From Acetobacter oryzoeni (lineage in GTDB: Bacteria; Pseudomonadota; Alphaproteobacteria; Acetobacterales; Acetobacteraceae): DNA of 64,000 nt. Shown here piece by piece: positions 5,375-21,782 of the stretch; the first letter of the stretch is position 1; every line of letters starts with the position of its first letter. The stretch lies in assembly GCF_004014775.2 (NCBI RefSeq), contig NZ_CP042808.1, positions 248,001-312,000 of the forward strand. The letters are read 5' to 3'. Below the pieces are notes generated by a model, which had not been told where the DNA came from, searched no databases, and saw only the letters and a program-made list of their open reading frames with translations. The position numbers and the translations under genes were made by a program.

Positions 5375-5405
5375 GTGTGCCTGAATGAAATGTCAGGATA
5401 TCTCT

Positions 5406-8342
5406 ATGTCTTTAAGCGGTAATATTAAAAAAATCGATTGGAGCGTATTTGACGCAACATGGTACGCAGAAAAATATGAGGATGTTCTGAAATTTCTGGG
5501 TATTGAAGGTGCAGAGGCATTAGAGGCATTTTATAGGGAAAAGGGGCCTGCGCTCCGCCATTCACCCAATCCATATTTTGATGAAGATTGGTATTTGCGG
5601 CGTTATCCTGCTGTTGCTGATGCCGTAAGCAAAGGTGAATGGCAATCTGGGTTTGACCATTATTGCCGCACGGGTTCTTCTTCCCATAATCCACACTGGC
5701 TTTTTGATCGTGAATTCTATTTCAAACAGCAGCCAGCTCTTCAACCTGCGGTATTGGAAGAAGCCGGATTTCGAAATCTTTATGATCATTACCTAAATGT
5801 GGGTGATGAGCAGTTTTTGACGGGGTCATGGTTTTTTAACCCAACAGCGTATCTCAAAAGCGGCCATGCACGTATTGAAGGCTTGGGTGCTTTTGCACAA
5901 TGCGTACGTAATCTGGAACCTGAGCAGGGATATGGGCACCGTTTGTCCTGGTATTTTGACCCTGAATGGTATCTGGAAACCTATCCACATGTCAGGAAGG
6001 AACTGGATTCAGGGCGTTGGCTTTCTGCCCTGCACCATTATTTGTCTAATTCCGCACCAACAGATTACAATCCGAACGCGTACTTTTCGGAAGAGTTTTA
6101 TGGCAGCGTTAACCATGATGTAAGTGGTGCGGTTGAAAGCGGAAACTTCCGTAATTTTTATGAACATTTTTTACGTTATGGTGTGCATGAACTGCGTAAA
6201 CCAAGCGCCAATGTTGATTTGGAAGGCTACTATCGTAATGCGGTTGTGCAAAAGGAAGTTACCCGTGGTGATTTCCCAGATGCATTCGCGCATTATATTG
6301 CCCATAACGGCAGGTTAGAAGATGATGTGGCAGGGCTGAAGGAAAGCGAAGCTCTTTCCAAAAAGCTTTATCATGAAATGTGTCAAATTCGGTTGCCTGT
6401 TCTGTTGAATCAGACATTGGATTTCACATACGATGTGCCAGATTTAAGCGTTATTATTGTAGCGCATAACCTGTTTGCCATGACCATGAGCGCATTGGCC
6501 TCGTTACGTGCCAACTATAATGGCCAAATGCAGGTTATTGTGGTGGACTCTGGTTCTACAGATGGTGTGCGCCATATTGAACGTTATGTGCGTGGTTTGG
6601 ATGTTGTACGTTTTCCAGGCAATGTTGGTTTCTTGTTGGGTTGCAATGCCGCATTGGAAAAAGTGCGTGGTCCATTCATGCTTTATCTGAATAACGATAC
6701 AGAGTTGATGCCAGAAGCCATTGGCAATGCCTTGGCACGGCTACGCTACAAAATGAAAATAGGGGCCGTTGGTGGCAAACTTGTGCGCACCAATGGCTTG
6801 TTGCAGGAAGCAGGGAGTATTGTCTGGCGCGATGGTTCTGTGTGCGGTTATCTGCGTGACCAGCGGCCGGATGTGCCAGAAGCTAACTTTGTAAGATCCG
6901 TAGATTATTGCGCCGGTGCATTTTTGATGGTGCGTACATCTTTGCTGCGCCAACTAGGTGGCTTTGATACGGATTATGCCCCAGCGTATTTTGAAGAAAC
7001 AGATCTGTGCCTGCGTATTCATGAAGCTGGGTTTGATGTTGTGTACGACCCTTCGGTGGTTGTGGTGCATTATGAATACGGTACATCCAGTTTTATGAGC
7101 GGTGCTTCCATGATAGCGCGCAATCAGGATGTATTTCGCCGTAAGCATACAGCATATTTGCGCCAGAAAAGCCTGAACAACCCAAGAATGCTGATAAAGG
7201 CCCGTTTCAGCAGGCAGGATCAGAAACGCATTTTATTTATTGAAGACAGATTACCCTATCGGTTTTTGGGGTCAGGCTTTACGCGTTCAAATGATATTGT
7301 GCGCAGCATGATTGCTGCAGGATGCCAGGTAACGGTGTATCCGGTGTTTAGACCCACAGAATCTCAGGAAGATATCTGCATGGCTTTTCCCGATCAGACA
7401 GAGGTGATCTGGGATAGGGAGCTGCCAGAACTGGAAGATTTTATTAAATCCCGCGCCGGATATTACGATGCTATCTGGATTGCACGCACGCATAATGCAG
7501 ACCGTCTGGCCCCAGTGCTGATGGATTGTGCTGATGCCCTAACAGGCACAATGGTGATTATTGATACTGAAGCCGTATCGGCCCCGCGTGAGTACCGTAA
7601 AATGGAATTACGGGGGCAAACGCCAGAAAACACAGTAGATGATCTTCTGAAGCACGAATTCAGACATCTGTTCATGGCTGAAAAAATTATTGCAGTGAAC
7701 AGCAAGGATTCAAAAATCCTTAATGCGCATGGTTTTTCGAATGTTCATGTTCTTGGGCATTTGCAAAATGCTTCAACATGGTCTCCCGGATGGGAAGAGC
7801 GTCGGAATATTCTTTTTCTGGGGGCTATGCACGATCAGGATTCACCTAATGTAGATTCTCTTGCCTGGTTTAGCGGAGAAGTGTTGCCATTGCTGGATGA
7901 TCGTTTGCCAGAGGATGTTAAGTTTACAGTTTGTGGCTATGTAAACCCGCGTGTTGATCTTACGCCGCTTCTTAACAATCCACGCGTTGTGGTGACGGGG
8001 CGGGTAGAGGATGTAACCCCTGTTTACAATAGCCACCGAGTATTTGTGGCACCAACCCGATATGCGGCGGGCATTCCCTACAAACTGCACGAAGCCGCAG
8101 CACATGGTATTCCTATTGTAGCAACGGATATCTTGTGTGAGCAGGTTGGATGGGTGCCGGGTGAAGATATGCTGTGCGCCAGTATCTCAGACGCACAGGG
8201 TTTTGCAGATGCCATTGTCCGACTGTATGAAGACAAGCAGATGTGGGAAAAAGTGCATGTGCGTGAACTCAAGCGGATTTCTACAGAGAACACGCAAGAG
8301 AATTATGTAAAAGCAATAAAGGAAATTTTAGAAATTTCCTGA
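5406..8342 (+). CDS. Aromatic-repeat protein with GT2 and GT-B glycosyltransferase domains
   Basis: A 978-residue protein. Residues ~15-310 hold six or seven divergent repeats of about 42 residues, each opening like 'YFDEDWYLRRYP' and ending in an H-Y-x3-G-type segment. A GT2 domain runs from ~346 to ~580 ('DLSVIIVAHN', 'VVDSGSTDG', the acidic motif LNNDTE, 'YFEETDLCLR'). A GT-B/GT4-like domain covers ~605-975 ('ILFLGAMHDQDSPNVDSLAWF', shortened here to its key ILFLGA and PNVDS parts, and 'GIPYKLHEAAAHGIPIVATD'). It should build a surface polysaccharide, but donor and product cannot be read from sequence. The start at 5406 has AGGA seven bases upstream; an in-frame ATG at 5385 lies too close to the predicted transcription start. 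The repeats recur in the proteins at 16667 and 19404. Confidence 0.85.
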   Translation: MSLSGNIKKIDWSVFDATWYAEKYEDVLKFLGIEGAEALEAFYREKGPALRHSPNPYFDEDWYLRRYPAVADAVSKGEWQSGFDHYCRTGSSSHNPHWLFDREFYFKQQPALQPAVLEEAGFRNLYDHYLNVGDEQFLTGSWFFNPTAYLKSGHARIEGLGAFAQCVRNLEPEQGYGHRLSWYFDPEWYLETYPHVRKELDSGRWLSALHHYLSNSAPTDYNPNAYFSEEFYGSVNHDVSGAVESGNFRNFYEHFLRYGVHELRKPSANVDLEGYYRNAVVQKEVTRGDFPDAFAHYIAHNGRLEDDVAGLKESEALSKKLYHEMCQIRLPVLLNQTLDFTYDVPDLSVIIVAHNLFAMTMSALASLRANYNGQMQVIVVDSGSTDGVRHIERYVRGLDVVRFPGNVGFLLGCNAALEKVRGPFMLYLNNDTELMPEAIGNALARLRYKMKIGAVGGKLVRTNGLLQEAGSIVWRDGSVCGYLRDQRPDVPEANFVRSVDYCAGAFLMVRTSLLRQLGGFDTDYAPAYFEETDLCLRIHEAGFDVVYDPSVVVVHYEYGTSSFMSGASMIARNQDVFRRKHTAYLRQKSLNNPRMLIKARFSRQDQKRILFIEDRLPYRFLGSGFTRSNDIVRSMIAAGCQVTVYPVFRPTESQEDICMAFPDQTEVIWDRELPELEDFIKSRAGYYDAIWIARTHNADRLAPVLMDCADALTGTMVIIDTEAVSAPREYRKMELRGQTPENTVDDLLKHEFRHLFMAEKIIAVNSKDSKILNAHGFSNVHVLGHLQNASTWSPGWEERRNILFLGAMHDQDSPNVDSLAWFSGEVLPLLDDRLPEDVKFTVCGYVNPRVDLTPLLNNPRVVVTGRVEDVTPVYNSHRVFVAPTRYAAGIPYKLHEAAAHGIPIVATDILCEQVGWVPGEDMLCASISDAQGFADAIVRLYEDKQMWEKVHVRELKRISTENTQENYVKAIKEILEIS

Positions 8343-16666: not shown

Positions 16667-17146
16667 ATGTCCGGTGAAAAAAAGCCTGTCAGTAAGGTTC
16701 GTTCTTCTCGTGTGAAAGTGGCGCGTAAAAAAGTTGTGGCCCCAACAGCGTCAGAAACACATGAACCAGAAGTGGTGCCTCAAGTTGAAGAACAGGTGGC
16801 AGCAGACCCTGTAGCCAAGCCTGCACAGGCTCCGGCGGCAGAACAAATTGCATTAGCACTTCAGTCTCAGGCGAGTATTGTGGAACAAGAAGCTGAAAAA
16901 GAACGTCGGGCCGCTATCTTTTTTGATAGCCAGTGGTACCTTAATGCATATCCAGATATTTGTGAGGCGGGTGTAGATCCGCTGGAACACTTTCTGGATT
17001 ACGGTGCTAAGGAAGGTAGAAACCCGAATGCGCTGTTCAATAGCCTTTCCTATTTACGGGTAAATCCAGATGTAGCTGGGTTTGGGCCGGGGCCTTTTAT
17101 CCATTACATCTGTTATGGTTTTCAGGAAGGTCGTCCACTACGCTAG
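16667..17146 (+). CDS. Small aromatic-repeat protein with basic/Pro-Ala-rich N terminus
   Basis: A 159-residue protein of unknown function. Residues 1-82 are low-complexity, basic then Pro/Ala/Glu-rich, and probably disordered. Two copies of the aromatic repeat follow: residues ~85-122 ('FFDSQWYLNAYPDI' ... 'EGRNP') and ~124-159 ('FNSLSYLRVNPDVAG' ... 'EGRPL'). The same repeat precedes the glycosyltransferase domains at 5406 and 19404. No enzyme domain, signal peptide or membrane segment is present, which suggests an adaptor or scaffold role (inference). The ATG at 16667 has GAGGGGG seven bases upstream. A terminator follows immediately. Confidence 0.8.
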   Translation: MSGEKKPVSKVRSSRVKVARKKVVAPTASETHEPEVVPQVEEQVAADPVAKPAQAPAAEQIALALQSQASIVEQEAEKERRAAIFFDSQWYLNAYPDICEAGVDPLEHFLDYGAKEGRNPNALFNSLSYLRVNPDVAGFGPGPFIHYICYGFQEGRPLR

Positions 17147-17160
17147 GATGCGCTAAATTT

Positions 17161-17205
17161 AAAAAAAGGGCGTATGGTTATTAAACCATACGCCCTTTTT
17201 TATTA
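17161..17205. terminator. Strong bidirectional terminator
   Basis: A perfect 12-bp stem (GGGCGTATGGTT, 17168-17179, with its complement at 17184-17195) carries a 4-base loop and is flanked by an A-run on the left and a T-run on the right. It serves both the plus-strand gene ending at 17146 and the minus-strand gene ending at 17224. Confidence 0.9.
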
Positions 17206-17223
17206 TTATATAAAAGATATTTT

Positions 17224-19074
17224 TTATATTTCTTCAACAACTTCTATATGAGACGGAAACTCTACTTCTTTATTTTCATCCAGAATATAATAGTGAATAT
17301 TTTCAGAAACCCAATCTTCCCGGAAATCACAATCCTTATAAATGTTACGGCATGGCGTATTATCTGGAAGATCATGAATAGATGCCGTTACACGAACATC
17401 TCCATGTTTTTCTCTAACGTGGCTGACAACATCAGCAATAATACTCTTTTCTACTTCCATGCCCAAAACACGGCAGCTCATAACAAACTGTACAATTTCA
17501 TTATTGCGTAGGTATATTACGCTTACCAATCCATATTTAGTGAATTTGTCCTGAACAGTTGCAACAATAACTTCTCCGCCTTCAGCAAGAAAGCGTGTGA
17601 GTTCTTCAAATGTCCAACGTTTACCAGATGTGTTGAACTGATTGGTCTTGTTGGTAAGTTCTAAGGCACGTGCCAGTTCTGGTTGTTCTGCATCTGTGAT
17701 GTAGGTGAGGCAGACCGTACATTCCAACGATGCCAGAAATTCTTCACGGTTCAGGTTGGTGCGTGTTTCTTCACGGGCAATTTGTCCTCGGATCATGGTT
17801 TCCCGTTGGACTGATTCCTGTGTCAGGCGAGCAACCTGCGTTTCGGGGGACCACAAAAGAATACGACGCGTGAGATACGGGTTGCCGCCAATTGTACGAA
17901 TTTCAGGAAACGCCGTATTAACAGCAGCGCGTTCTACAGGGTTATCATCTACAAACACAACGCTTTTGGGTTTGATGTTAAATTCCTGGCAGATGGCAGC
18001 AATATTTTCTGGTTTGGGCGTCCAGTTAATTTTAACAGAGGCAAAATCTTCCAATTTAATAAACTGCGGGTTGATAATATCATCCCACCGTTCACGCACA
18101 TAGGCTTCATCATTTTTGGAGCAAATGGCCACCAGAATACCGCGTGCGCGCAAGGTATGGATAGTTTCCCACAAACCTACAGGCCAACCATCGGTACGTG
18201 GCCAAGGTTGTACTTCTGGGCGGTAATGTTCCGCTATCTGGCCGCGCCATAGGGTGTTGTCCAGATCAAAAATAACGGCCTTAACCTGATCTACCTGATG
18301 TACAGTGCGATGAGCTGCAACAATCTGGCGGAAAATGGTTTTAATAAATTCTTCCCGGTGAATAGGATAAATGGTTTCTAGTGCAGGAATGGGTTCATTG
18401 CGTTCAATGGCACCGAAATCATCCCAATCCTGAAAAGACAAACCGCCATGAGTATGGAAGTAAATAACATCATCCAGCACATAGCATTTGCCTAAAGAAG
18501 ACACGACGGAATCAACGTCTAGTACATAGGCATTTTTATAACTGGAAATTTTTTTGGCCAGATGCATGTTCAAGCGCCTGACCATATAGGTCAGGTCTAC
18601 TTCTGTACCTTGTGAGAGCAAGCTGGAAGCTGTGCTTATTTGCGGAACTATAAAGTTAGAGACAAATGTTAATAACCCATGTTTGCGGTTGTAAAGCAGT
18701 GCCGCATCTAGCATGACATCTAGCGTGTTTAAGGCATCGTGCAGAATACTCTCTGCAAATGCTGGGTCGTTAAGCCTAAACCCTTCTATCACACGGTCAC
18801 TTAAAACAGTGCGTAATGGAATTTGTACATATTGTAGATCGTACTGATCTGCCGGTACGGGTGGGGTTTCAGGTAAAATACTTACAAAATTATAAGGGAT
18901 GTAATCAAAATTGATATCTGGATAATATCCCTTAAAGGCTTCCAAATATAAAGAAGTTAAGCATGAGCCAACCAAGAGAATGCGATTGATCTTGCGCTCT
19001 GTTTTTTGAAGATCTGTAGGAAATAGAAAATCCGGAGATGCAAGAGGAGAATTATTGTTTGTTGTTGTCGACAT
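17224..19074 (-). CDS. FkbH-like HAD-IIIC family protein
   Basis: A 616-residue protein. The N-terminal ~230 residues match the SGNH-like/unknown domain usual in this family. A HAD-IIIC domain follows with the nucleophile motif 'FDLDNTLW' (Asp270, Asp272), 'AICSKNDE' and 'VFVDDNPVERAAV'. The C-terminal GNAT-like part has 'LELTNKTNQFN'. FkbH-type enzymes take 1,3-bisphosphoglycerate and load a glyceryl unit onto a carrier or themselves; relatives also occur in surface-glycan loci. The start at 19074 has GGAG seven bases upstream; five more in-frame residues could precede it. No acyl carrier protein is nearby. It lies between the small repeat protein and the glycosyltransferases, so decoration of a glycan is the likely context. 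Confidence 0.85.
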   Translation of the reverse strand: MSTTTNNNSPLASPDFLFPTDLQKTERKINRILLVGSCLTSLYLEAFKGYYPDINFDYIPYNFVSILPETPPVPADQYDLQYVQIPLRTVLSDRVIEGFRLNDPAFAESILHDALNTLDVMLDAALLYNRKHGLLTFVSNFIVPQISTASSLLSQGTEVDLTYMVRRLNMHLAKKISSYKNAYVLDVDSVVSSLGKCYVLDDVIYFHTHGGLSFQDWDDFGAIERNEPIPALETIYPIHREEFIKTIFRQIVAAHRTVHQVDQVKAVIFDLDNTLWRGQIAEHYRPEVQPWPRTDGWPVGLWETIHTLRARGILVAICSKNDEAYVRERWDDIINPQFIKLEDFASVKINWTPKPENIAAICQEFNIKPKSVVFVDDNPVERAAVNTAFPEIRTIGGNPYLTRRILLWSPETQVARLTQESVQRETMIRGQIAREETRTNLNREEFLASLECTVCLTYITDAEQPELARALELTNKTNQFNTSGKRWTFEELTRFLAEGGEVIVATVQDKFTKYGLVSVIYLRNNEIVQFVMSCRVLGMEVEKSIIADVVSHVREKHGDVRVTASIHDLPDNTPCRNIYKDCDFREDWVSENIHYYILDENKEVEFPSHIEVVEEI

Positions 19075-19403
19075 AAAGAACTCCGCCAAGATAGCTCTTA
19101 TTCTATTTAGATTCGTAATGAAGAGATTGCTTGTTCAGTGAGGGAAATGAGTAAGAGCGTAAGGCCTCATTGAAAGTTTATAAAAAATTAATTCATACAA
19201 CACAATGAACCTCTTTATAGTCTCCCGCCAACATGAAGGAAAGTATTTTTAGGCAATGAATTCAGGGAGGGGAATGAGAAAATTATAGATAAACAGAATA
19301 ATTTTCATGTAGAGAAATAGTTAACTGTTGTATTTTCTAACATAAAAATTTATATTCTGAATAAGAACCTGCAAATAGAGATAGCATTCAAACGGAAGAT
19401 GCA
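19075..19403. other. AT-rich divergent intergenic region
   Basis: A 329-bp gene-free stretch between two divergent genes, the FkbH-like gene (minus) and the repeat glycosyltransferase (plus). It is visibly richer in A and T than the surrounding genes. I found one good promoter candidate for the plus-strand gene (19328-19356) and the GGAG ribosome-binding site of the minus-strand gene. I saw no strong inverted repeat or RNA gene. Confidence 0.6.
19328..19356 (+). promoter_or_regulatory. Candidate housekeeping promoter
   Basis: TTGTAT (19328-19333), a 17-bp spacer and TATATT (19351-19356) fit a sigma-70-type promoter for the glycosyltransferase starting at 19404. Chance matches are more likely in AT-rich DNA. 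Confidence 0.4.
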
Positions 19404-20954
19404 ATGGTAAGTTTAACTGCCTGGAATAAAAAAGACATAAAATCAATAATTGATTCAGGAAAATTCGATATTGAATTTTATTTAAAAGAAAATCCAGATG
19501 TGAAAAAATCTGGTCTTGATCCAATTATACATTATGTTCTTTACGGGGTGCATGAAAACCGTAATCCTAATGATAATTTCAATACAGAAATATATTATAA
19601 TCTTTATAAAAATGTGATCGGGAAGAATGAGAATCCCTTTGCTCATTATATAAGAAATAATGACCATATGTTTTTCTTTGAAAAAGGTCTATTGCAGGAA
19701 TATTCGTATGTTTCCATTACGAATGCATTGAACAGATTAAAGAAATATCCGTTCTTTAATGAAGAAGATTATGTGCGTATGAACAGCGATGTTTCATCCG
19801 CCAGTATGCCAACTGCCCGCCATGCTTTGCTGTATGGTATTGGCGAAGGGAGAGAAATTTTTTCCAAGCGTTCAATCATGCGCTTTTTGGGTAATGAATG
19901 TAAGCACGACGTTAATTACAAGATAACTGATAAAGTTTATGGTAAGAATTTTCCTAAAACAATTGGGGTATTCTACCACTCTGAAGGTAATTCCTTTATT
20001 CAGGAACTGGCCGAGTGTTTAAGCGACTATCTGTGCGATGCCGGTTTGAATGCCAAGGTGCTGACCGAAAAAACGCCAGAGGAAGAAACACCTGAACTCT
20101 GCATTTTCTGTGCTCCGCATGAGTTCTTCTTTCTGGATGGCAATGAAATCTGGAAGCGTGATGAGATTATTAGAAAATCCATCATGTTCAATACAGAACA
20201 ACCTCAGACACTCTGGTTTACACGTGGCATTCTGTACATCCTTATGTCAGCTGGGGTGATGGATCTGTGTTATCAAAATCTCAAATCCTTTTCAGATGTC
20301 GGGCTTCCGGTCTTCCACTTTGATCCGCCGGTTAAAATAGAGGCTTGCAAACTTTCCGAGGCAGACAAAAAGCATCCCTTGTTCCGTATTTTGCCAGAAA
20401 AGGCCAAAACAGGTTCTACGCCATTCCGACCAATTGCCGAGCGTGATATTGATGTCAGCTTTTTTGGGAATGCTTCCCGCAAGCGCGAAAAGTTCTTTTC
20501 ACGTTCAGCAGCTTTCTTTTCCAACTACCAGTGCTTCTTGTATTACCGTAAGGCAGATGGGCCTATCCCCTCTACCGGTGTTTACGACATTCTTTCGCGC
20601 CTTCCACGCTATGTCGCAGAAAACTCCAAGGTAGCGTTAAACATTCATCGTGATGATAACTGCTTTTTTGAATGGCATCGTATTGTCAAGCAGGGTCTGG
20701 CTTCCGGTACTATCGTTGTTACAGAAGAATGTTTCCCGCATCCGCTGTATAAGGCAGGTGAGCACTTTCTGTCTGAAACGCCGCGGCATATGCCCAATCT
20801 GGTGGAATGGTTGATTCAGACTGAGGATGGGCAAAAAGAGGCAGCCAGAATTCAGCAGAATATCTTTGATTTGCTGCAAGATGAAAAAATATTCAATTCC
20901 AAGAATATCGATCTCAAAAACTATATTTCTGCTGTGTGGAGCACTGTGAAATGA
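19404..20954 (+). CDS. Aromatic-repeat glycosyltransferase, CgeB-like C terminus
   Basis: A 516-residue protein. Residues ~20-160 contain three aromatic repeats, the clearest being 'FDIEFYLKENPDVKKSGLDP' ending in 'ENRNPN', with a weaker copy near 118-155 ('GIGEGRE'). The rest looks like a GT-B glycosyltransferase of the CgeB/family-1 type: 'DVSFFGNASRKREKFF', 'VALNIHRDDNCFFEWHRI' and 'LASGTIVVTEECFPHPLY'. Donor and acceptor are unknown. Codons are AT-richer than in the flanking housekeeping genes. Its TGA overlaps the next ATG by four bases, so it is translationally coupled to the GT2 gene. Confidence 0.8.
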   Translation: MVSLTAWNKKDIKSIIDSGKFDIEFYLKENPDVKKSGLDPIIHYVLYGVHENRNPNDNFNTEIYYNLYKNVIGKNENPFAHYIRNNDHMFFFEKGLLQEYSYVSITNALNRLKKYPFFNEEDYVRMNSDVSSASMPTARHALLYGIGEGREIFSKRSIMRFLGNECKHDVNYKITDKVYGKNFPKTIGVFYHSEGNSFIQELAECLSDYLCDAGLNAKVLTEKTPEEETPELCIFCAPHEFFFLDGNEIWKRDEIIRKSIMFNTEQPQTLWFTRGILYILMSAGVMDLCYQNLKSFSDVGLPVFHFDPPVKIEACKLSEADKKHPLFRILPEKAKTGSTPFRPIAERDIDVSFFGNASRKREKFFSRSAAFFSNYQCFLYYRKADGPIPSTGVYDILSRLPRYVAENSKVALNIHRDDNCFFEWHRIVKQGLASGTIVVTEECFPHPLYKAGEHFLSETPRHMPNLVEWLIQTEDGQKEAARIQQNIFDLLQDEKIFNSKNIDLKNYISAVWSTVK

Positions 20955-21721
20955 GCGTTATCAAGCCATGGGACCCCAGCCCGGAAGTTGTTTTTTCCTA
21001 TAAGAAAAAATCTCGGAAGCCCAAAAACCTGATTACGGTCTGCGTTACCAACTTTAATTATGCTTCTGTTATTGAAGAGTGCCTGGATAGCATTGCAGAC
21101 CAAACGCATGCTGATCTGGAAATTGTGGTTGTTGATGATTGCTCCCAGCGAGATGATTCCGTTGATGTGATTGCGGAATGGATGGAAGAAAACAAGCAGC
21201 GTTTTTATAGCCTGCAGTGTTTGACCAACCCGCGGAATCAGGGGCCATCATTTTCGCGCAATATGGCGTTTGCACATGCGCAATCAGAGTATGTGTTTAT
21301 TATTGATGCCGATAATACCATTTATCCAACTGCGCTAGAAAAAATCTACACAGCGCTTTTGCAGGGTAAGTTTCCAGCGGTTTATACCCAGATTGAAGAG
21401 TTTGGAGATCGCAAAGGTATTGGCCATGCCGATATCTGGGATGCCGCACGCATGCGCAAGAACAACTATGTGGATGTGATGGCGCTTATCCGTAAAAGCG
21501 CGTGGGAAAAGGTTGGCGGCTTCTCACATATTGAAGAAGGTTGGGAAGATTATGATTTCTGGCTGAAGTTTATTGATGCAGGGTTAGAGCCCGGATATCT
21601 GCCAGAAATTCTGTGTCGCTACCGTGTGCATAATTCTTCCCGCACAGTAACGGAAGCATTGGCTGCACATTATGATCTGGAATTGGTGATGGAGTTCCGT
21701 CACCCAGATTTGGTTGAGTAA
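20951..21721 (+). CDS. GT2 family glycosyltransferase
   Basis: A 256-residue GT-A glycosyltransferase. The N-terminal nucleotide-binding fold has 'LITVCVTNFNYASVIEECL' and 'VVVDDCS', the DxD motif is in 'FIIDADN', and the acceptor-side motif is 'GWEDYDFWLKF'. It would add a sugar to a surface glycan. It starts within the preceding stop codon (ATGA). An in-frame ATG at 20936 is possible but less economical. A terminator follows. Confidence 0.9.
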   Translation: MSVIKPWDPSPEVVFSYKKKSRKPKNLITVCVTNFNYASVIEECLDSIADQTHADLEIVVVDDCSQRDDSVDVIAEWMEENKQRFYSLQCLTNPRNQGPSFSRNMAFAHAQSEYVFIIDADNTIYPTALEKIYTALLQGKFPAVYTQIEEFGDRKGIGHADIWDAARMRKNNYVDVMALIRKSAWEKVGGFSHIEEGWEDYDFWLKFIDAGLEPGYLPEILCRYRVHNSSRTVTEALAAHYDLELVMEFRHPDLVE

Positions 21722-21744: not shown

Positions 21745-21782
21745 ATAAAAAAGAGCGGAAGCAATTCCGCTCTTTTTTATTT
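21745..21782. terminator. Bidirectional terminator
   Basis: A perfect 10-bp stem (AAGAGCGGAA at 21751-21760, loop GCAA, complement at 21765-21774) has an A-run before it and a T-run after it. It separates the GT2 gene (plus) from the barrel gene (minus). Confidence 0.9.

Follow-up and report, generated by a model that had tools for sequence, protein, structure and literature searches.

Several described systems offer points of comparison for the locus considered here, an island of four genes at positions 16,667 to 21,721 of a 64,000-nucleotide stretch of the Acetobacter oryzoeni genome (contig NZ_CP042808.1, positions 248,001 to 312,000; the window), in which a small protein and a glycosyltransferase share a short repeat with a further glycosyltransferase encoded elsewhere in the window. 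The N-terminal domain of the Caulobacter enzyme FlmG is a TPR domain. The publication on FlmG (PMC7591256) presents it as a modular flagellin glycosyltransferase, and the two repeat-bearing glycosyltransferases of the window, GTB and GT985, resemble it in having a separate N-terminal domain on a cytoplasmic glycosyltransferase, but differ in that their repeat is not TPR by Pfam. GTB also resembles CgeB/GT4-type enzymes (the PimA, BshA and SenB structures) in that its catalytic part, residues about 181–516, has a predicted GT-B fold; NCBI names some of its relatives “CgeB family protein”, although identity to solved glycosyltransferases of this type is 7–14% and GTB adds three N-terminal repeats. 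Members of the FkbH family transfer a glyceroyl group from 1,3-bisphosphoglycerate to a carrier protein. The FkbH-like protein of the island is like other HAD-IIIC enzymes of TIGR01686 in its score above the cut-off and its HAD motifs, but unlike those systems it lies among glycosyltransferase genes, with no polyketide gene or carrier-protein open reading frame (ORF) noticed by eye, and it is absent or split in relatives. Finally, the acetic acid bacterium Kozakia baliensis is said to possess a gum-type heteropolysaccharide cluster (PMC5553594, PMC5050591). The product proposed below would likewise be a surface heteropolysaccharide of acetic acid bacteria, but the Kozakia genes form a gene cluster of their own, whereas the island contains transferases only.

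The explanation that we prefer, with a probability of roughly 0.45 for the whole of it, is that GTB and the adjoining GT2 would be translationally coupled cytoplasmic glycosyltransferases which, together with the separately encoded GT985, would add sugars to a surface glycan, whether exopolysaccharide, capsule or a side chain of lipopolysaccharide. The pair would be a horizontally moving cassette, here inserted in a variable slot, and the FkbH-like enzyme would be an optional decorator that probably supplies a glycerate-derived group. The repeat would act as a short three-helix docking module at the N-terminus of GTB and GT985, and the small protein as an adaptor whose repeats may pair with those N-terminal repeats while its basic tail would keep the enzymes at the acidic inner-membrane surface.

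The GTB-GT2 Pair and Its Partner GT985

The firm unit of the island is the pair formed by GTB (19404..20954, plus strand, 516 residues; three N-terminal repeats followed by the CgeB-like domain) and GT2 (20951..21721, plus strand, 256 residues; PF00535 at 101.9 bits against a cut-off of 23.3, E 4.7e-29), the stop codon of the first gene overlapping the start codon of the second as ATGA. The sequence-only reading had proposed that these two enzymes are coupled, and their conservation bears this out: they stand side by side in all 27 named loci (14 from Acetobacter and 13 from Komagataeibacter), in all eight genomes with GTB at E < 1e-60 among 120 sampled Acetobacteraceae (these eight include the source genome, and A. 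farinalis is counted in both sets) and in the four plasmid loci that were opened. GTB is 96% identical to its counterpart in Acetobacter pasteurianus LMG 1262 (the source genome is 3.15 Mb in size), and a Pfam search for PF13524 or any other GT4 model returned no family for it at E 1. As to phase variation of GTB or FkbH, the split frames in L072, L074, L089 and L070/L051 (L denotes loci and G genomes of the comparison set, G000 being the source genome) share no common tract and may be draft errors. Elsewhere in the source genome, the GT2 part of a 1008-residue GT4+GT2 protein, encoded divergently from an RTX-type repeat protein (L062; G000:C1:2899-7666), is the sole other match to the GT2 protein at E 1e-25.

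Eight GTB matches lie on plasmids, six of them outside the Acetobacteraceae, and the opened loci belong to Gluconobacter oxydans, A. aceti, Novosphingobium (a conjugative plasmid) and Aminobacter. Transposase genes are found near the pair on the Gluconobacter oxydans and A. aceti plasmids, and the GTBs of the Novosphingobium and Aminobacter plasmids also bear the repeat. On the Novosphingobium plasmid, one of the two opened among the six outside the family, the dTDP-rhamnose genes rfbABCD lie about 2.5 kb from the pair, and on the Aminobacter plasmid the pair is followed by genes for a DegT aminotransferase, a GNAT protein, a methyltransferase and an acyltransferase; in A. oeni, a GT17 gene is directly downstream. 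The surface-glycan role suggested earlier draws its support from this context (rfbABCD, DegT and GT17 genes near the pair), which makes a surface glycan the probable product, and a mobile surface-glycan cassette is the best reading of the pair.

The third repeat protein noted in the window is GT985 (5406..8342, plus strand), a 985-residue ORF that opens at 5385, with 5406 as an alternative start; in A. farinalis, the corresponding ORF starts at what is residue 8 here. The protein combines a GT2 domain (PF00535, residues 355–469) with a GT4-like domain (PF13692, residues 807–950). Its link to the pair holds up well. GT985 is directly downstream of GTB-GT2 in two other genera (G037 and G079) and again on the Gluconobacter oxydans and A. 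aceti plasmids, and among 49 genomes of the genus, 21 have GTB and all 21 also have GT985 (Fisher 7e-5; here and below, the counts of the small protein, GTB and GT985 in the 49-genome table were entered by hand and are uncorrected for phylogeny, and a second small-protein match in G149 was reclassified as part of a different protein). In 35 of the 49 genomes, GT985 is close to complete, a few of these copies having an in-frame stop.

A Variable Slot with an Optional FkbH-like Gene

The cassette slot lies between M16-peptidase and small-protein genes on one side and amino-acid permease and dinB genes on the other. In the close relative G149, whose M16 peptidase is 95% identical, the small gene adjoins the M16 gene, and an 868-residue double-GT2 protein with a Lys/Arg-rich C-terminal tail (L178:124-2730) and a GT92-like gene stand where FkbH-GTB-GT2 would be; the contig ends at the slot, so that the comparison covers the near flank. 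The pair itself is found in two orientations relative to the flanks, and the two observations together are the behaviour that would be expected of a variable surface-glycan slot.

The FkbH-like gene (17224..19074, minus strand, 616 residues) encodes an HAD-IIIC enzyme, scoring 212.8 bits against the TIGR01686 cut-off of 146.65 over residues 264–585, with the HAD motifs DLDNT at 270 and DDNP at 376 intact. It adjoins the pair in 7 of the 14 named Acetobacter loci, being split in A. farinalis, and adjoins GTB in 11 of the 21 genus genomes that have GTB. The earlier description of the gene as a member of one system is thus unsupported as it stands; the gene is best seen as an optional, lineage-specific decorating enzyme, and a glycerate chemistry for it is suggested by the family activity given above. 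A paralogue, 62% identical, is encoded at 1.80–1.84 Mb of the source genome. The region downstream of groEL at G000:C1:1804000-1842000 (L017–L019) is a second, larger glycan region, with several FkbH-like genes (three ORFs of 743 residues, plus split pieces) together with GT92-like and GT17-F5/8C genes.

All four genes of the island are present where the sequence-only reading had placed them, as judged by ORF calls, Pfam and TIGR01686, in the order small (plus), FkbH (minus), GTB (plus) and GT2 (plus). That strong terminators enclose all four is true only in part. One strong bidirectional terminator, where the small and FkbH genes converge (17162..17201; -27.5 kcal/mol, z -7.7), and another after GT2 (21745..21780; -21.5 kcal/mol, z -6.6) enclose FkbH-GTB-GT2 only, so that the first of them splits the small gene from the rest, and a terminator scan found none ahead of the small gene between 16436 and 16667. 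These two hairpins are distinguished by folding energy and not by the number of sites, since the five terminator-like sites of the region do not exceed the shuffle mean of 5.5. Because FkbH is also antisense to its neighbours, the island is not one operon; the small gene, FkbH and GTB-GT2 are three transcription units.

The Repeat

The repeat that had been read from the window's letters is confirmed by a search with a single protein and by a nine-row model. With GTB alone as query, the repeats of the small protein were recovered in the same genome at E 3.6e-11. The model (A1), whose nine rows were drawn from the three window proteins, finds nine strong copies in them, but as these copies are its own training set, their E-values are circular and are given here for orientation: in GT985, repeats 1–2 (5574..5831; 3.1e-17 and 2.2e-15) and 3–4 (5952..6209; 9e-17 and 4.6e-17); in the small protein, two repeats (16919..17140; 2.0e-19 and 2.4e-16); and in GTB, repeats 1–2 (19461..19676; 4.7e-19 and 3.5e-14) and repeat 3 (19752..19862; 1.0e-15), all on the plus strand. 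Weaker copies in GT985 lie at 5448-5495 and 6246-6302 on the same strand (E 4.5 and 2.0). The model also matches two further proteins of the source genome (E 3.5e-8 and 1.6e-4). A second-round model built on 235 aligned stretches gives the consensus YFDEAWYLARNPDVAAAGLNPLEHYLRYGAREGRDPN, and structure prediction suggests a fold of three short helices.

Known families do not account for the repeat. At E 1, Pfam returns nothing for the small protein or GTB and only glycosyltransferase families for GT985; all three proteins fall below every NCBIfam cut-off. TPR and Sel1 were considered as identities for the repeat and rejected, as neither the small protein nor GTB has a Pfam match at E 1. Foldseek gave no match for the small protein in PDB at E 10, and a second look had only two chains, the model being short with a disordered tail. 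A search of the open-licence literature with the letters of the repeat found no paper, and nothing in listings of that literature was recognised as this locus.

Within the source genome, the repeat is carried by the three window proteins, by a 220-residue protein and by a methyltransferase. The former (L014:1213-1875; G000:C1:2242347-2242601) resembles the N-terminus of GT985 without any Pfam domain, its gene lying upstream of one that reads as pdxA-like in sequence; in the latter (L015:1396-2523; G000:C1:478156), the repeat is fused to the methyltransferase domain, and a GT61 gene (L015:236-1354) adjoins it on the opposite strand.

In the family at large, the repeat is found in 98 of 120 Acetobacteraceae genomes at E 1e-5. 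From the best-match listing of this search, 80 loci were drawn in the order listed, after removal of those retrieved before; they hold 85 repeat-bearing ORFs, of which 81 were scanned with Pfam (L095, L122_1789, L162_3283 and one ORF below the 20-bit limit were omitted). At least 52 of the 81 carry a glycosyltransferase domain, a figure composed of 18 of 35 scanned singly, 2 of 8 deduced from a PF00535 total of 14, 12 of which had come from the single scans, and at least 32 of the remaining 38. The other carriers are an RTX protein (L149), a TPR protein (L150) and proteins with no Pfam domain, and one carrier of the glycosyltransferase type (L138) has a methyltransferase domain as well. The repeat is therefore skewed to glycosyltransferases and yet not confined to one system. 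It cannot serve as the private mark of a single system for which it had been taken; on the other hand, its occurrence with unrelated domains, which had been named as an outcome that would speak against a shared system, is only partial given so strong a skew.

The Small Two-Repeat Protein

The small protein (16667..17146, plus strand, 159 residues) consists of a disordered tail (residues 1–54) with a basic stretch, a helix (55–82) and two repeats that run to the C-terminus, the model having pLDDT 93–97 from residue 61 onward. It has 21 database relatives at E 1e-4, and its best match in a viral library searched with the small-protein model is at E 2.3. A basic stretch, defined as net +5 or more within 30 residues, is present in the tail of 24 of the 26 small-family proteins examined, the one from the window among them, as against 28% of 443 background ORFs, some of which are mechanical ORFs; contig-edge or different proteins (L179, L187, L188, L192 and the L074 fragments) were omitted from this count and L063 was kept apart. 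The repeats themselves carry a net negative charge in 24 of these 26 proteins.

The distribution of the gene follows GT985 more closely than the pair. In the 49 genomes, both the small protein and GT985 are present in 33, the small protein only in 1, GT985 only in 2 and neither in 13 (Fisher 5e-9, compared with 0.011 for the small protein and GTB); copy numbers are equal in 44, and the small protein is present in all 14 genomes that have GT985 without GTB. In 16 of the 21 genomes with GTB, the small gene is no more than 6 kb away from it. In G123, only a C-terminal piece of GT985 remains, at a contig edge, and there is no small gene, a state that may reflect joint loss of the two but also an assembly gap.

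In other genera, the relatives stand in quite different surroundings: beside a radA-like gene in L176, L180 and L189 (L176 and L189 have a comEC-like gene at the opposite flank), or as the first gene before mltB-rlpA-dacC in L177, L181 and L190 (several genera), an mltB-like gene also following directly in L182 and L184. The gene names are our reading, the families having been checked with Pfam on L176 and L190. The small protein belongs to an older set of proteins with a basic tail and two repeats, spread over many genera of the family, and its earlier assignment to one system is unsupported in the form in which it was made. The mltB-rlpA-dacC context hints that the repeat may be linked to peptidoglycan enzymes. 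Overall, the idea of one system survives in part: GTB-GT2 is tight and GT985 is linked to it, but FkbH is optional and the small protein also exists without the pair.

Weighing the Explanations

Several observations weigh against the docking-and-adaptor explanation. No interface was predicted, and the repeat occurs on RTX and TPR proteins too. Its function as a docking module is a tentative proposal that we hold at somewhat less than even odds, and the role of the small protein as a membrane adaptor is a little more doubtful still. The whole tail of the window protein has a net charge of only +1 (its basic stretch is +7), the tails of L064 and L075 lack a basic stretch, and in L063 (G040), where the order is reversed with repeats first, the C-terminal tail contains a +11 stretch but is -5 overall. 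The small gene lies away from GT985 in most genomes, and the radA and mltB-rlpA-dacC contexts contain no pointer to polysaccharide synthesis. Equality of copy number fails in G117 and G165 (a GT985 but no separate small gene), G144 (two small, one GT985), G149 (one small, two GT985) and G145 (a weak small match and no GT985), and few independent events may underlie the hand-counted co-occurrence. Furthermore, the ORF list and Pfam show no sugar-nucleotide, flippase or polymerase genes in the island.

It can also be argued that no single function unites the four genes. A glycosyltransferase cassette and an FkbH gene would by chance have come to share an insertion-prone slot with a small, long-established protein of the envelope or nucleoid, and the repeat would be a generic helical module. 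The three transcription units, the FkbH gene next to just over half of the GTBs, the G149 slot with its small gene but no cassette, the breadth of the repeat and the radA and mltB-rlpA-dacC neighbours are all consistent with this; the copy-number match between the small protein and GT985, the proximity of the small gene to GTB in 16 of 21 genomes and the skew of the repeat to glycosyltransferases are not, and we consider it rather unlikely. A different kind of proposal has the repeats bind a glycan or lipid-linked acceptor, as a carbohydrate-binding module that gives processivity. Aromatic, His and Arg positions are indeed conserved in a repeat that is attached to glycosyltransferase domains, but the model places the conserved aromatics inside its short helices, where they may belong to the core, Pfam finds no catalytic domain in the free-standing small protein, and the repeat part of its family is, as noted, mostly negative in charge; this proposal is quite improbable.

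Alternatively, the repeats could bind protein acceptors, the enzymes glycosylating secreted AIDA/Hint adhesins in the cytoplasm before export, much as the modular FlmG treats flagellins. An AIDA-Hint-GT4 fusion is directly upstream of GTB-GT2 in A. oeni and A. musti, a Hint protein is encoded upstream of the cluster in G037, the Gluconobacter plasmid has two Hint genes upstream at distances of 6 kb and more, and the source genome has 21 Hint_2 matches (e.g., C1:503879-553957), though none in the window. Against this, the Hint model finds a Hint gene in just 2 of the 80 loci with the repeat and in 3 of 35 with GTB (the 27 named plus the 8 family genomes, A. farinalis entering twice, with flanks of unequal length), and the two loci opened outside the family have rfb or aminosugar genes near the pair. 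Hint_2 is moreover common in the family (at least one in 96 of 120 genomes), so that some Hint neighbours of the pair are there by chance. As a general rule, an association with Hint was rejected, Hint being enriched at neither repeat nor GTB loci. We judge this protein-glycosylation scheme to be unlikely, somewhat more so than a chance grouping of the genes.

If the docking-and-adaptor explanation were extended to the family, the repeat, borne at the N-terminus by glycosyltransferases of many kinds, would be a novel code for docking in the Acetobacteraceae cytoplasm, and the two-repeat, basic-tail protein would be a general adaptor that gathers these enzymes at the inner membrane, which is speculative and on present evidence rather unlikely. 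Were it true, these bacteria would possess changeable assembly lines, into which an incoming glycan cassette would fit simply by carrying the repeat. Docking of glycosyltransferases by the repeat would show how unlinked and horizontally acquired sugar transferases are spatially ordered, a question still open in polysaccharide assembly, here in bacteria that serve to make vinegar and cellulose. If there is no docking, what remains is a repeat without a Pfam entry in about four-fifths of the sampled genomes of the family, and a coupled glycosyltransferase pair whose frequent partner enzyme, GT985, is now named.

An Autoprocessing Protein with a Built-In Sugar Transferase

The A. oeni and A. musti fusions (L076:6131-9562 and L077:6273-9686) unite an AIDA stalk, a Hint autoprocessing domain and a GT4 domain in one protein. 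A search for relatives, in which 7995 candidates were scored, found Hint and glycosyltransferase domains together in 108 of the best 120 of 611 by our own count, and some relatives lack AIDA and carry the extracellular-nuclease domain PF03372. A protein of this kind, Hedgehog-like in its autoprocessing and furnished with its own sugar transferase, would merit separate study.

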